Shown here: positions 35,225 to 41,395 of the stretch, piece by piece
How positions within the stretch are numbered: the first letter of the stretch is position 1
Layout: every line of letters starts with the position of its first letter
NCBI GenBank assembly: GCA_029262275.1
Contig: JAJCZS010000007.1
Span: 184,785 to 248,784, forward strand
Source of the DNA: Deltaproteobacteria bacterium
Lineage (GTDB): Bacteria > Desulfobacterota_D > UBA1144 > Nemesobacterales > UBA2774
DNA: 64,000 nt
Reading direction: 5' to 3'
Notes under the pieces: model-generated
The model's input: the letters and a program-made list of their open reading frames with translations, nothing else
Database searches by the model: none
Told to the model about the DNA's origin: nothing
Made by a program: the position numbers and the translations under genes

Positions 35225-36178
35225 TTAGGTATTAAGGTTGTTCTGCATTACTCTTAGAAAATTTCCACTCATAATTTTAGAAACCCGATCTTCTGAATAG
35301 CCTTTATCAAGGAAATACTGAGCTATCTTTGGAAGATCAGCTATAGTCTTTAAGCCCTCGGGAAAGTCCTCGATCCTTGCCCCATCCATATCACTCCCAA
35401 TTCCCACGTTGTCTTCACCACATAGATTAATCATATAGTCGGCATGAGCGAACACTTCTTCAAGTGTAGGAGTTTCGTCTCCAATCTTAAGAAAATAGTT
35501 GTACAGGACTATGCCAATTACACCGCCCCTGTCAGAGATTGCCTTTAGCTGCTCATCTCTTAAGTTCCTAGAATGGTCTGTCAGAGCTCTTGCATTTGAG
35601 TGAGTGGCTATGGGGATGAGATCGGTAAGTTCAATCGCTTCCCAGAAACACTTCTCATTAAGATGAGATAGATCAAGAGTTATGCCAAGCTCATTCATTC
35701 TTTTAATTAACCTAACTCCATCCTCTGACAATCCATCTTCTGAGTCGCTACCTGATGCATATTGGTTCTTATTGTTCCATGCTGGTCCTATTATTCTGAT
35801 TCCTCTCCTATGGAATTCATACAAATCTTCCACCTTTTCTATAGGATCGGCTCCTTCCATGAGGGTTAAGAATCCTATCTTAGAATCTTGTCCAAACCGG
35901 GAGAGATCTTGGACATTTTTAATTTGATATACGTCATTGCTAAAGAGCTCATAAATTTCATCGTATTTATCAAGCTGCTCTAGTGCAGATTGCACTGTTT
36001 TATCCGGTTTGTGCTTTGGGTGTATGAATACGGTATTGAACACCATCCTAACATTGCCTTCTTTAAGTCCAGGGAGTGTAATCATGCAGGGGGTGCTTGG
36101 GTTTACAAAATCCCTTTTAAAGTAATTTAAGTGAAATGCTATATCTTCATGAGCATCTATGATTAGGAAGTTTTTCAT
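35225..36178 (-). CDS. M19 membrane dipeptidase family protein
   Basis: Zinc-dependent dipeptidase of the renal dipeptidase type, which cleaves dipeptides including those with D-residues at the C-terminal side. The metal-binding residues are visible: H10 and D12 in DAHEDI, the Glu of LMEGADPI, and the two His segments THSNARALTDHSRNLRDEQ, preceded by DLSHLNE. The closing NVGIGSDMDG barrel strand is present. It has 317 residues and no signal peptide, so it is probably cytoplasmic despite the family name. It is the last of a three-gene minus-strand operon (4-bp gap to the MEMO-like gene). Confidence 0.92.
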   Translation of the reverse strand: MKNFLIIDAHEDIAFHLNYFKRDFVNPSTPCMITLPGLKEGNVRMVFNTVFIHPKHKPDKTVQSALEQLDKYDEIYELFSNDVYQIKNVQDLSRFGQDSKIGFLTLMEGADPIEKVEDLYEFHRRGIRIIGPAWNNKNQYASGSDSEDGLSEDGVRLIKRMNELGITLDLSHLNEKCFWEAIELTDLIPIATHSNARALTDHSRNLRDEQLKAISDRGGVIGIVLYNYFLKIGDETPTLEEVFAHADYMINLCGEDNVGIGSDMDGARIEDFPEGLKTIADLPKIAQYFLDKGYSEDRVSKIMSGNFLRVMQNNLNT

Positions 36179-36182
36179 ATGA

Positions 36183-37412
36183 TTAAGAATAAAAAGCTAG
36201 ACTCGCAAAACTTACCACAGAGCCAGTGTCAGACTCTAGGGCCTGATCATATCCCAATAACTTGGCATTATCTGCCTCAATTGTCCTGAGTGTGGCATAG
36301 ATTGACGAAAGACCGCAAATTTTCCTCCAGTCCTTTTCTTCTTCAACGGATCTGTAAAAACCCTCAGCGTCTAATTTCTCACTGAACTCTAAACTTCTGA
36401 TATCCCTTTCCTTTATTCTACTAAGCATAAGGTCATTTACTTCTTCTTTGTCCCCAAATTTAGGCCCCACATGAGCCATATCCACTCCAGCTATGATAAA
36501 CGCTTTATCACCTAATTCTCCTAATATTTTAGAAAAAGATTCGAGAAAGTGTGACACTTTCTTGTCTTCTCTGGGTGATTTTCCTTCCTGTACCAAACTA
36601 AAAAATGAGTTACATAATATGGGTAATATTTTGTATTCTTTTTTTTCTCTCAGCACGTATTGTAAGAATGCAACCTGAAATTCTATTGAGTGCTCAGTCC
36701 TGTGAGCTATTTCCCCTTCAAATAAATCCCAATCGCACTCCTCGATCACTTTGTCTATAAGCTCATTATCAGTTTCAGATATCCCAAGTGGTGTTTCAAA
36801 ATTCTTCCGGGTTAAAATAAAGGGATTATCAACTTGTGCATAATGGGAGGTACCAAAAATAATATATGTATCCGCCTCACAAGTTTCATCGAGTTCTCGG
36901 TAAGCCTTCGCATATAGGTGACTGCCTCTGGTGAAATCAATATGTGGTGAAATTAACCCTCTGAGTTTTCCCGGTGATTTCTTGTACGGCTCTTTATGAT
37001 CAGCTTCTTTGAAAAATTTTTCAAACCATCCGTTTAATTCATTGGCCTCAAGAGGATATGAAAGTCCTGCTTGGCTTGATGGTCTTATAGCTGATGAATT
37101 AAAGTCCTCAACTATTTTGTCTTTATGTTCTTTAAACTTTTTACTGTCTAAGAAAAGTGCATCATCTAACTGTTCTATTAAATGCTTCAACTCCTCCTCT
37201 GGGACTCTTTCGCCAGATTTCTCTTCACAAGTTGCTTGTATGTCCTCTATTGAATTTGTGCCGTCGAATAAGCTGATTATAAAAATTGTCTCTCTTGATA
37301 GCAGCATGACTTTATCGCTCACACTGTTAGGGTCTCTCAAGCAGATAAGCCTCTCTCCCTCGTGCTCGACAGGGAATGCTTCTAGTGGATTTAGTTTAGG
37401 ATATTCCATCAT
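36183..37412 (-). CDS. MEMO-family protein with extra N-terminal domain
   Basis: The C-terminal two thirds (about 130-409) match the MEMO family (AmmeMemoRadiSam system protein B): GLISPHIDFTRGSHLYAKAYRELDE, YIIFGTSHYAQ, HRTEHSIEFQVAFLQYVL, AGVDMAHVGPKFG and a closing GSVVSFASLAFY. The metal-site histidines in PHIDF, TEHSIEFQ and MAHVGP are present, consistent with the dioxygenase-like fold. The first ~100 residues form a separate domain (VMLLSRETIFIISLFDGTNSIEDIQATC...LKHLIEQLDDALFLDS) that reads like a PqqD-like or winged-helix peptide-chaperone module. The radical SAM and AMMECR1 partners are not adjacent. It sits 6 bp from hydantoinase B and 4 bp from the dipeptidase, so the three are likely cotranscribed. 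Substrate unknown. Confidence 0.85.
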   Translation of the reverse strand: MMEYPKLNPLEAFPVEHEGERLICLRDPNSVSDKVMLLSRETIFIISLFDGTNSIEDIQATCEEKSGERVPEEELKHLIEQLDDALFLDSKKFKEHKDKIVEDFNSSAIRPSSQAGLSYPLEANELNGWFEKFFKEADHKEPYKKSPGKLRGLISPHIDFTRGSHLYAKAYRELDETCEADTYIIFGTSHYAQVDNPFILTRKNFETPLGISETDNELIDKVIEECDWDLFEGEIAHRTEHSIEFQVAFLQYVLREKKEYKILPILCNSFFSLVQEGKSPREDKKVSHFLESFSKILGELGDKAFIIAGVDMAHVGPKFGDKEEVNDLMLSRIKERDIRSLEFSEKLDAEGFYRSVEEEKDWRKICGLSSIYATLRTIEADNAKLLGYDQALESDTGSVVSFASLAFYS

Positions 37413-37418
37413 TTGAGT

Positions 37419-38981
37419 CTATTTGGGTTTGCCCCACCCACCTCCTGCAGGGGTTTCAATTCTTATACTATCTCCGTTTTTAACTTCAAAGCTTGCTTTG
37501 GGTTCAATCTGAGTTGCTTTATTACGTCTGATAAGAGTGTTCTTGCCTCTCTTTCCCGGTTTTCCTCCTTCAATACCATAGGGAGCAAATTTTCTTCTCT
37601 CCGTTATCATTGACACCGTTGCCTCAGATAAAAATTTGTACTCTCTAATTATAGAATCTCCTCCCTTAGACTTACCTCTTCCTCCACTGTTCTTTCTTAT
37701 CGAATAAGAATTTAACATAACTGGAAGCTCTCTCTCAAGCGATTCCACGGGGGTATTAAGTGTATTTGTCATATGTGTTTGTACTGCACTTACGCCGTCT
37801 AATCCAAAACGTGCTCCCATGCCCCCTGCTATGGTCTCGTAGTAAGCGAAGTTTTTGCCCGTTCTGGGATTTACTCCGCCAAAGGTGAAATTGCTCATAG
37901 AACCGGCGCTTGCAGCGGGGACCTTTTTAGGCACAGCTTTGGACAATGCGCCGAACACCACATCCACAACCCGCTGAGAGGTCTCTACATTTCCACCAAC
38001 TACCGCAGCTGGATACTTTGCATTCAAAATAGAGTCGTCACCCACAATTATTTCTACCACTCTAAGAGGGCCCGAGTTAAGGGGCATCGATGAAGGTGCT
38101 AAGCACTGAAACACATAAATAACAGCAGCAGTTGTGACGCTGTATGGAGCGTTCAGATTGCCCTTTACCTGTCTTGAACTGCCACTTAGATCAACTCTTG
38201 CACTTCGGCCCTTGATTGTAACTTTTACTTTTATTGGAATTTTCTTCGTTCCTACTCCGTCATTATCTAAATAATCCTCGAACTCATAATTGCCGTCTGG
38301 GATTTGCTTTATGACTTCTTTCATAATCTTCTGGCTATAGTCCAAAAGCTCATTCCCTGCCTGCTTTAGTTTTTTAAGTGAATATTTCTTAATAGTCTCT
38401 CTAAGTCTTCTCTCTCCTAATTCAATAGCACCCACCTGAGCGTTAAAGTCTCCCTCTCTTTCCTCAGGATCTCTTGTCGATTTTAGGATTTCATTAAAAA
38501 GATTTTTGTTGAGTACTCCTTTTCTGTAGAGTTTCGATGGAGGGATAAGTACGCCCTCTTGATCAATGGAGGTGGAGAGAGGCATGGAGCCAGGGGTAAG
38601 TCCTCCTATATCTGCGTGATGGGCACGTGATGCTACAAAAAATTCCAGTTTCTTATTGTAGAAAACGGGCATAATGCAGGTAATGTCTGGAAGGTGTGTT
38701 CCTCCCCTGAAAGGATCATTTAGAATTAAAATATCACCTTCATTTATCTCCGGCATATCTAGTACTGCTCTTACAGCAAAGCTCATCGATGCCAAATGTA
38801 TGGGGATGTGAGCAGCCTGGGCTATCATATCTCCGTTTGATTGGAATATGGCGCATGAGAGGTCTCTTCTTTCTTTTATATTAGGAGAAAATCCTGCTCT
38901 TATAAGAACCATGCCCATTTCTTCTGCGATTGAGCTTAGAGTATTCTGATAAATTTCTAATTCAAATGGGGTGAGAGACAT
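37419..38981 (-). CDS. Hydantoinase B / oxoprolinase beta-type subunit
   Basis: A 520-residue member of the HyuB family, which hydrolyses hydantoins or 5-oxoproline with the ATP-using HyuA subunit. Signature segments are the opening MSLTPFELEIYQNTLSSIAEEMG, IKERRDLSCAIF, GDMIAQAAHIPIHLASM, GDILILNDPFRGGTHLPDIT, ASRAHHADIGGLTPGSMP and the C-terminal PAGGGWGKPK. No HyuA gene is next to it, which is unusual because HyuA is normally adjacent or fused. The gene heads the minus-strand operon with the MEMO-like and dipeptidase genes, suggesting use in peptide or cyclic amide breakdown. 5-oxoprolinase, hydantoinase or acetophenone carboxylase-type activities cannot be separated here. Confidence 0.9.
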   Translation of the reverse strand: MSLTPFELEIYQNTLSSIAEEMGMVLIRAGFSPNIKERRDLSCAIFQSNGDMIAQAAHIPIHLASMSFAVRAVLDMPEINEGDILILNDPFRGGTHLPDITCIMPVFYNKKLEFFVASRAHHADIGGLTPGSMPLSTSIDQEGVLIPPSKLYRKGVLNKNLFNEILKSTRDPEEREGDFNAQVGAIELGERRLRETIKKYSLKKLKQAGNELLDYSQKIMKEVIKQIPDGNYEFEDYLDNDGVGTKKIPIKVKVTIKGRSARVDLSGSSRQVKGNLNAPYSVTTAAVIYVFQCLAPSSMPLNSGPLRVVEIIVGDDSILNAKYPAAVVGGNVETSQRVVDVVFGALSKAVPKKVPAASAGSMSNFTFGGVNPRTGKNFAYYETIAGGMGARFGLDGVSAVQTHMTNTLNTPVESLERELPVMLNSYSIRKNSGGRGKSKGGDSIIREYKFLSEATVSMITERRKFAPYGIEGGKPGKRGKNTLIRRNKATQIEPKASFEVKNGDSIRIETPAGGGWGKPK

Positions 38982-39026: not shown

Positions 39027-39497
39027 TTACTCTGAAGTGCTTGAAGGCGGAACTTTGATTTGACTATAGTTCCAGTACTTACACTGCTCGGAATTGTAAT
39101 ATTTTATAAGTGAGTTTGGCACGAAATCTTTTATAGGGCTCCCTGGAATAATATGATTTCCGTTTTCGCATCTTTGAACAAGTTGTAGGTAAGGAATTGT
39201 GGCCTTATCTCCCTTGTTGTATTTGCCTTTTATATTCTCAGTTACTTTTACTGTTGCAGTACATTTAGCCAGGAGCTCAGGAACAAAGTCGCTATTTCCC
39301 TCTTTTGCAGTGCATTCCTTGGATTCGTAAGGCTCCCCGCATTCAATTTTTGTTACCGTTCCTTCAATGGCAAAGTCAGAGCTTTCTAAGAGCTGCTCCT
39401 GACTGCACGGTGCAGGAAGAGCCAGACACACACCAGGTATTATAGTGCTGATAAGTAAAACAAGTGATATTATTAGTTTATTTTTCATAGTTTTCAT
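39027..39497 (-). CDS. Small secreted cysteine-rich protein
   Basis: The 156-residue product has a signal peptide (MKTMKNKLIISLVLLISTIIPG, cleavage near LA-LPAPC) and about six cysteines in the mature part (PCSQ, ECGEPYESKEC, AKCTAT, QRCENG, EQCKYW), enough for three disulfide bonds. The strands AIEGTVTKIEC and KCTATVKVTENIKGKYNKGDKATIPY resemble a small netrin- or TIMP-like OB fold, in which metal or protease inhibition is possible, but this is weak. It is divergent from the epimerase gene. Confidence 0.65.
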   Translation of the reverse strand: MKTMKNKLIISLVLLISTIIPGVCLALPAPCSQEQLLESSDFAIEGTVTKIECGEPYESKECTAKEGNSDFVPELLAKCTATVKVTENIKGKYNKGDKATIPYLQLVQRCENGNHIIPGSPIKDFVPNSLIKYYNSEQCKYWNYSQIKVPPSSTSE

Positions 39498-40525: not shown

Positions 40526-41395
40526 TTATGAGATTGCTTCTTTAAGTGTCTCGCCCATCTCAGCAGGACTTGGGCAAACTCTAACACCAGCGTCCTCAAG
40601 CGCTGCAACTTTATCCGCGGCACTTCCTGAGCTACCAGAAATGATAGCACCAGCATGCCCCATCCTTTTTCCTTTAGGAGCAGTAGAGCCTGCAATAAAA
40701 GCTACAACCGGTTTATCAACATTTTCTTTGATATATGCAGCAGCTTCTTCCTCAGCGCTTCCGCCAATCTCACCAATTAGGATTACAGCCTCAGTATCTT
40801 TATCTTTGTTAAATAGCTTTAGTACATCAATAAAAGTAGAGCCGATAATAGGATCCCCACCAATTCCAACTGAAGTTGATTGTCCTATTCCAAGCTCTGA
40901 TAATTGCCAAACCGCTTCATAAGTTAGAGTTCCGCTTCTTGAGATAATGCCAACATTTCCAGGTGTATGGATATATCCAGGCATAATCCCCACTTTTGCC
41001 TCACCAGGTGTCATGACTCCCGGGCAATTAGGTCCAATTAGTGTTACATCTTTTCCTTCCATGTATTTCTTTACTTTAACCATATCTAGAGTAGGAACTC
41101 CTTCAGTAATGCAGATAACAAGTTCTACACCAGCGTCTATGGCTTCAATCATAGAGTCCATGGCAAATGCTGCAGGCACAAATATTAGCGAAGTATTAGC
41201 CCCCGTGATTCTTCGGGCATCTTCAACTGTATCAAAAACAGGAAATCCATCTACATCTGTTCCGCCTTTTCCTGGTGTTACACCACCAACTACCTGAGTT
41301 CCATACTCACGACATTGGGTGGCATGAAACAAACCAGCGCTTCCAGTTATTCCCTGCACAATTACTTTGCTATCTTTGTTTACTAAAATGCTCAT
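40526..41395 (-). CDS. sucD: Succinyl-CoA synthetase alpha subunit
   Basis: Catalyses, with SucC, conversion of succinyl-CoA to succinate with substrate-level phosphorylation in the TCA cycle. CoA-binding [13 protein letters not shown] and [27 protein letters not shown], and the active-site histidine H247 in KRMGHAGAI are all intact. The 289 residues are the normal length. Unusually, sucC is not next to it: the upstream neighbour on the same strand is yicC, about 110 bp away. The beta subunit must be encoded elsewhere. Confidence 0.97.

Follow-up and report, generated by a model that had tools for sequence, protein, structure and literature searches.

The stretch analysed here, referred to as the window, comprises 64,000 nucleotides of contig JAJCZS010000007.1 (assembly GCA_029262275.1, positions 184,785 to 248,784 of the forward strand) and belongs to a metagenome-assembled genome of Candidatus Dadabacteria (2.48 Mb, 47 contigs; G000). 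It contains a series of three minus-strand genes that encode a hydantoinase B subunit (HyuB), a MEMO-family protein with an additional N-terminal domain and an M19-family dipeptidase. An initial annotation, made from the letters of the window, had described this trio with its gaps of 6 and 4 bp and had pointed out a gamma-glutamyltranspeptidase (GGT) gene in the same window; the open reading frames (ORFs), coordinates and Pfam families were all confirmed, and the features are as follows (RRE, RiPP recognition element).

37419..38981, minus strand: HyuB, 520 aa; PF02538 Hydantoinase_B, 694 bits (Pfam)
36183..37412, minus strand: RRE-MEMO protein, 409 aa; PF01875 Memo, 148 bits, residues 113-405
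37116..37412, minus strand: N-terminal domain of the RRE-MEMO protein, residues 1-99; RRE/PqqD-type fold in a predicted model
36186..37097, minus strand: MEMO domain, class III extradiol dioxygenase-like fold; structural match to MEMO1 (7kq8)
35225..36178, minus strand: M19-family dipeptidase, 317 aa; PF01244 Peptidase_M19, 283 bits
1565..3334, minus strand: GGT; PF01019, 603 bits; unlinked, 32 kb from the trio

Judging from the stop-to-start gaps in the window ORFs (6 bp, then 4 bp), cotranscription of the hyuB, MEMO and M19 genes is plausible. The order HyuB-MEMO-M19 with gaps below 600 bp is kept in 17 of the 57 Dadabacteria genomes on which all counts for the phylum are based (genomes, families, genera and loci are labelled G, f, g and L), and the trio is more conserved than could be known from the window. 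Given these 17 ordered trios and the 36 of 38 linkages between HyuB and M19 described below, the arrangement is far beyond chance. The protein families at the locus are all already known; new are the split of HyuA and HyuB and both the linkage and the fusion of HyuB to M19. Among the loci, L075 was left out as a duplicate region of L050.

HyuB had initially been regarded as lacking its HyuA partner. However, a profile search of the genome returned exactly one HyuB match and one HyuA match, the latter on the window's own contig (G000:C7:453796-455754, 653 aa, PF01968 339 bits) and separated from hyuB by 230,030 bp. No hyuA was found inside the HyuB-MEMO-M19 cluster itself, its sole copy being located 230 kb off. 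Since the genome offers this single HyuA no second HyuB as a partner, the description of HyuB as an orphan was rejected. No second, complete hyuAB pair was found elsewhere. Across the phylum HyuB was detected in 41 and HyuA in 38 genomes (both in 37, HyuB only in 4, HyuA only in 1, neither in 15); the genomes are related, so the Fisher value for this co-occurrence is not independent evidence. HyuA was never found adjoining HyuB in the 57 genomes, and in the five that carry both genes on one contig the spacing is 49, 230, 296, 392 and 418 kb. Conversely, the closest HyuB proteins outside the phylum (46-54% identical) have a directly adjoining HyuA in nine of ten loci, as determined in a search of 119 genomes, and the HyuA beside them is also the one most similar to the Dadabacteria HyuA. 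Over 25 loci outside the phylum, identity to the G000 HyuB correlates positively with that of the adjoining HyuA to the G000 HyuA (r = 0.76). Because the closest outside relatives adjoin HyuA and the identities covary, the simplest reading is that the pair once formed a single hyuAB operon, which was later split in Dadabacteria.

Neither subunit, nor the dipeptidase, shows any sign of degeneration in the sequence of its metal or ATP site. In an alignment of 16 of the 26 available HyuB sequences, the window's included, D40, H96, D99 and H121 are invariant and align with D41, H99, D102 and H124, the four metal ligands of CapB given in passages of PMC8453981, which also define the ATP motifs of HyuA. 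These motifs are present in the Dadabacteria HyuA, with DxGGTxTD as DTGGTFTD, DxGGT as DMGGT and GxxPGP as GADPGP. The dipeptidase was treated similarly, using 17 of the 27 available M19 sequences including that of the window. Here H10, D12, E108, H172, H193 and D263 are invariant in all 17, in keeping with HxD, E, H, H, D, the M19 metal ligand set. M19 enzymes cleave dipeptides, as the Pfam family name implies. The best solved relatives of the window protein belong to the renal dipeptidase family (3neh, 3lu2), with matches also to DPEP1 and GliJ, and both the whole domain and the ligand set of the membrane/renal dipeptidases and GliJ are kept. Unlike the membrane/renal dipeptidases, the window protein has no leading hydrophobic segment as judged by eye (it starts MKNFLIIDAHEDIAF), and in Dadabacteria the enzyme is linked or fused to HyuB.

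The conserved partner gene of HyuB is the M19 dipeptidase. HyuB and M19 occur together in 38 genomes, and in 36 of these they are encoded on the same strand of one contig within 8 kb, either adjacent, with MEMO in between, or with extra DNA in between (G006, G040), the widest gap being 7,961 bp. In the remaining two genomes (G002 and G004) they are on different contigs, with contig ends in the vicinity, and were counted as unlinked: the MEMO match of G002 reaches the contig end, while in G004 MEMO lies 117 bp from one contig end and HyuB about 1 kb from another. The linkage reaches families f1, f2, f4 and f7 as well as f8/g22, and in G056, a g22 member of f8, the most distant family, the HyuB and M19 frames overlap by a few bases. 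All 13 genomes of genus g17 encode the two proteins in a single ORF, with open frames of 846-907 aa that match both. One of these fusions was scanned with Pfam and contains both domains complete (669 and 268 bits), M19 being the C-terminal part; the junction, read in 9 of the 13 fusion ORFs, begins with GGGGWG and passes through a linker of about five residues into FFTIDAH or a slightly varied form of it. An assembly artefact is unlikely, since the fusion is seen in 13 separate assemblies. Judged by titles, a literature search returned no work on a HyuB-dipeptidase fusion.

The presence of an added N-terminal domain on the MEMO protein, noted in the initial annotation, is borne out by the predicted models, with AlphaFold pLDDT (model confidence) values of 77.9 for the full-length protein and 89.8 for the N-terminal domain alone. 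The predicted order of its secondary structure (strands 11-17, 20-26 and 35-38, helices 40-46, 55-66 and 72-84) is that of three strands followed by three helices, the order by which the RRE is defined in passages of PMC12710340. Structural comparison with VIA-align placed the modelled domain closest to the leader-binding lasso peptide protein B1 (6jx3; Z 9.4, rmsd (root-mean-square deviation) 2.8, 82 aligned residues), followed by the leader-binding lasso protein 5v1v (Z 8.3, rmsd 3.2, 83 aligned), while PqqD (5sxy) gave Z 7.5, rmsd 2.7 and 84 aligned. The top four rows, with Z from 9.4 to 7.5, are all RRE proteins, and winged helices of Rickettsia methyltransferases come next at Z 7.5-7.2. 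As values below about 8 may reflect a common winged-helix arrangement, the assignment of the extension as a PqqD/RRE-type fold is made at the level of the predicted fold. A profile search of the domain against PDB sequences yielded weak unrelated matches only (best E 0.044), and Foldseek gave no match at E < 0.001.

The remainder of the protein is a MEMO domain by both sequence and predicted structure, with 119 bits against a cut-off of 26 for TIGR04336 (Memo-type component B) and, for the model, a VIA Z of 23.1 to MEMO1 (7kq8; rmsd 3.1, 265 aligned). Relatives were collected as the best 80 of 388 confirmed stretches, 16 of the 80 being assigned to Dadabacteria from their identity and title; full-length RRE-MEMO proteins occur in Rokubacteria, Planctomycetota, Spirochaetes, Omnitrophota, Acidobacteria and others. 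In an alignment of 32 sequences, for which 31 of the 64 non-Dadabacteria loci were used, H157, H190, D311 and H314 are identical in all 32 and C366 in 30. The Memo fold and the metal-ligand positions are shared with the Memo-like AmmeMemoRadiSam protein B, from which the window protein differs in bearing the RRE/PqqD-like domain. AMMECR1 was not found in the window's genome and is present in two of the 57 phylum genomes; a complete AmmeMemoRadiSam system was rejected on these grounds. The same domain combination as in the window protein, as an AlphaFold-predicted RRE-Memo fusion, is named in passages of PMC12710340, where it is called unprecedented in RiPPs (ribosomally synthesized and post-translationally modified peptides). 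Those passages give the fusions no operon context or function, whereas the window protein is set between HyuB and M19.

This position is not a fixed one. Of the 41 HyuB genomes, 20 have no MEMO gene, among them all 13 with the HyuB-M19 fusion, which marks MEMO as an optional element between HyuB and M19. Outside the phylum no neighbour of RRE-MEMO is universally kept across the 64 loci, and no HyuA, HyuB or M19 of the Dadabacteria type was found in their flanks by tblastn. One flanking cluster covers 45 loci, and its listed members overlap or adjoin MEMO on the other strand; the other neighbour groups cover at most 15 of the 64 loci each, their first listed members coming from Rokubacteria. 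At one Rokubacteria locus (L132:7003-9760) the RRE-MEMO gene follows about 5 bp after that of an M20-family peptidase, and a 175-aa ORF without Pfam match and a thiamine pyrophosphate (TPP) enzyme come after it; neighbours like these recur in up to 15 loci.

Enzymes built from HyuA and HyuB open cyclic amides at the expense of ATP, according to passages of PMC8453981 and PMC6061476. The Dadabacteria pair has both subunits, the HyuB metal ligands and the HyuA ATP motifs in common with CapAB, HyuAB and 5-oxoprolinase, and differs from these in that its genes, in the five genomes with both on one contig, are 49-418 kb apart rather than adjacent and that HyuB is linked or fused to M19. Caprolactamase as the specific function was rejected: HyuB reaches 277 bits against the cut-off of 1000 for the CapB NCBIfam equivalog, and the aligned region of the Dadabacteria HyuB contains no Cys-Cys pair corresponding to the vicinal disulfide C410-C411 that passages of PMC8453981 place in the CapB pocket. 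The best solved relative, ahead of caprolactamase, is N-methylhydantoinase (PDB 7hk5 and six further entries; 453 bits for HyuA, 298 bits for HyuB). That enzyme is a single chain of 1288 residues joining HyuA and HyuB, whereas the Dadabacteria genes are separate, and in the alignment it has a glutamine where CapB has its fourth ligand (H124; H121 in Dadabacteria).

With both partner genes present, their metal and ATP motifs intact, and the linkage to M19 conserved to the point of gene fusion, the reading that we favour, at a probability of roughly 45%, is that the locus encodes part of a split HyuA/HyuB ATP-dependent cyclic-amide hydrolase whose dipeptide-like product is cut by M19, with RRE-MEMO as an optional protein of its own function. 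HyuB and the genome's one HyuA, whose gene lies at a distance of 230 kb, would together make up an ATP-dependent cyclic-amide (lactam) hydrolase, in which HyuA would activate the ring amide by ATP and HyuB would open the ring at its metal site. The ring-opened product would be a dipeptide or a dipeptide-like compound, and M19, adjoining HyuB or fused to its C-terminus, would convert it to amino acids. As substrates of the ring opening, cyclic dipeptides (diketopiperazines) and pyroglutamyl dipeptides are the candidates. We infer the formation of a HyuA-HyuB complex, the order of the two steps and the nature of the substrate; the fixed fusion of a ring-opening subunit to a dipeptidase fits two steps in series, from a cyclic or pyroglutamyl dipeptide via a linear dipeptide to amino acids. 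Along the same line, passages of PMC6061476 propose that many genes annotated as oxoprolinase encode a lactamase or a cyclic dipeptide hydrolase. RRE-MEMO, which the operon may include or lack, would have a separate role, probably one directed at peptides. A narrower version, in which HyuA and HyuB-M19 form an ATP-dependent diketopiperazine hydrolase with a built-in dipeptidase and RRE-MEMO is a metal-dependent oxygenase recognising a peptide or protein via its RRE, appears rather doubtful.

Several observations weigh against the coupling of ring opening to dipeptide cleavage. The two enzymes are separable, as M19 occurs without HyuB in eight of the 57 genomes (G013 and seven of f8) and HyuB without M19 in three (G008, where the HyuB match ends at the contig end, G011 and G012). 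The HyuB-M19 neighbourhood was found in none of 1,138 matching plasmid records, in none of the 119 genomes searched from one other phylum (at E 1e-30; in some genomes no more than eight candidates were scored), and in none of the genomes behind 32 of the 64 non-Dadabacteria RRE-MEMO loci; in one of the latter (G077) M19 and a partial HyuB are 8.6 kb apart and not adjacent. The product of the closest solved relative, N-methylhydantoinase, is N-carbamoylsarcosine and not a dipeptide. Finally, a literature search by titles returned no diketopiperazine hydrolase of the HyuA/HyuB family with proven activity.

The main rival is a gamma-glutamyl (glutathione) cycle, which we consider possible but on balance unlikely, and in which GGT would remove the gamma-glutamyl group, M19 would cut Cys-Gly, and HyuAB would serve as the 5-oxoprolinase of the phylum, turning 5-oxoproline into glutamate. 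Cleavage of Cys-Gly is an activity of the mammalian membrane dipeptidase. The role given to HyuAB is supported by the absence of PxpA (PF03746), the usual bacterial 5-oxoprolinase subunit, from all 57 genomes compared with its presence in 5 of 14 controls. Glutathione synthetase (PF02955) matches 55 of the 57 genomes, 54 of them over the cut-off, the copy in the window's genome also having GSH-S_N; GGT is present in 38 genomes, 36 of which have HyuB; and HyuA and HyuB match the two halves of eukaryotic 5-oxoprolinase as described in passages of PMC6061476. However, M19 and the oxoprolinase would act on parallel branches of such a cycle, which leaves their fusion unexplained. Moreover, five HyuB genomes have no GGT, among them G056 with its HyuB-M19 pair and the single-contig G012, most f8 genomes have neither PxpA nor HyuAB, so that a missing 5-oxoprolinase is tolerated, and the co-occurrence partly follows phylogeny. 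The earlier suggestion of a gamma-glutamyl or cyclic-peptide salvage pathway hence survives as two competing readings, which sequence alone does not separate. The f8 genomes (about 1 Mb), mostly without HyuAB and with no PxpA, apparently have no known 5-oxoprolinase. A RimK-like ATP-grasp ligase, recognised by eye beside a small ORF, is present in two copies in the window's genome (L256:4374-5779 and L257:4078-5440), both weaker matches of the glutathione synthetase family.

It is less probable still that HyuB and M19 are linked just by co-expression or by historical order near sucD, with a neutral fusion in g17 and unrelated substrates. Each gene does survive without the other in some lineages, and sucD, which has no obvious tie to HyuB or M19, is also kept close, but the linkage, which extends over several families, holds in 36 of 38 genomes, and the in-frame fusion is fixed in 13 of 13 g17 genomes. 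That MEMO stands in for an absent HyuA, as had been suggested at first, is hardly tenable and was rejected: MEMO does lie between HyuB and M19 in the 17 ordered trios (gaps <600 bp), but HyuA is present, so the premise is wrong and no step need be replaced, 20 of the 41 HyuB genomes (all 13 fusion genomes among them) manage without MEMO, its fold is dioxygenase-like and not that of an ATPase, and no HyuA, HyuB or M19 of this type flanks the 64 RRE-MEMO loci outside the phylum.

As regards the surroundings of the trio, sucD (succinyl-CoA synthetase alpha, by eye) was located at 40526-41395 of the window and at L240:3699-4565, L242:7763-8596 and L262:5616-6482. The last of these, the one f8 locus examined, comes from a genome without HyuB and has sucD directly beside M19. 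Just upstream of HyuB, at 39027-39497 of the window, is a gene whose 156-aa product contains Cys, matches no Pfam family and, judged by eye, seems to carry a signal peptide; the gene has the same position in family f1 genomes and was not detected in the compared loci of f2, f4 and f6.

The substrates of HyuA/HyuB enzymes are not readable from annotation, and passages of PMC6061476 and PMC8453981 make the case that the label oxoprolinase is wrong for many of the genes that bear it. Against this background, the fixed HyuB-dipeptidase fusion provides a hint that the ring-opened product of this HyuA/HyuB branch is dipeptide-like. If the cyclic-dipeptide reading is true, enzymes for the breakdown of cyclic dipeptides would be named together with a defined gene set; passages of PMC3852281 (2013) call the enzymes of the first step in this breakdown unclear. 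If, on the other hand, a 5-oxoprolinase acts here beside a Cys-Gly dipeptidase, the locus would show how the glutathione cycle is closed in a phylum without PxpA. That a little-studied, uncultured group keeps one half of an ATP-driven ring-opening enzyme beside a dipeptidase, and in one genus joined to it in a single protein, hints at cyclic amides being opened first and the resulting product then being cleaved into two parts.

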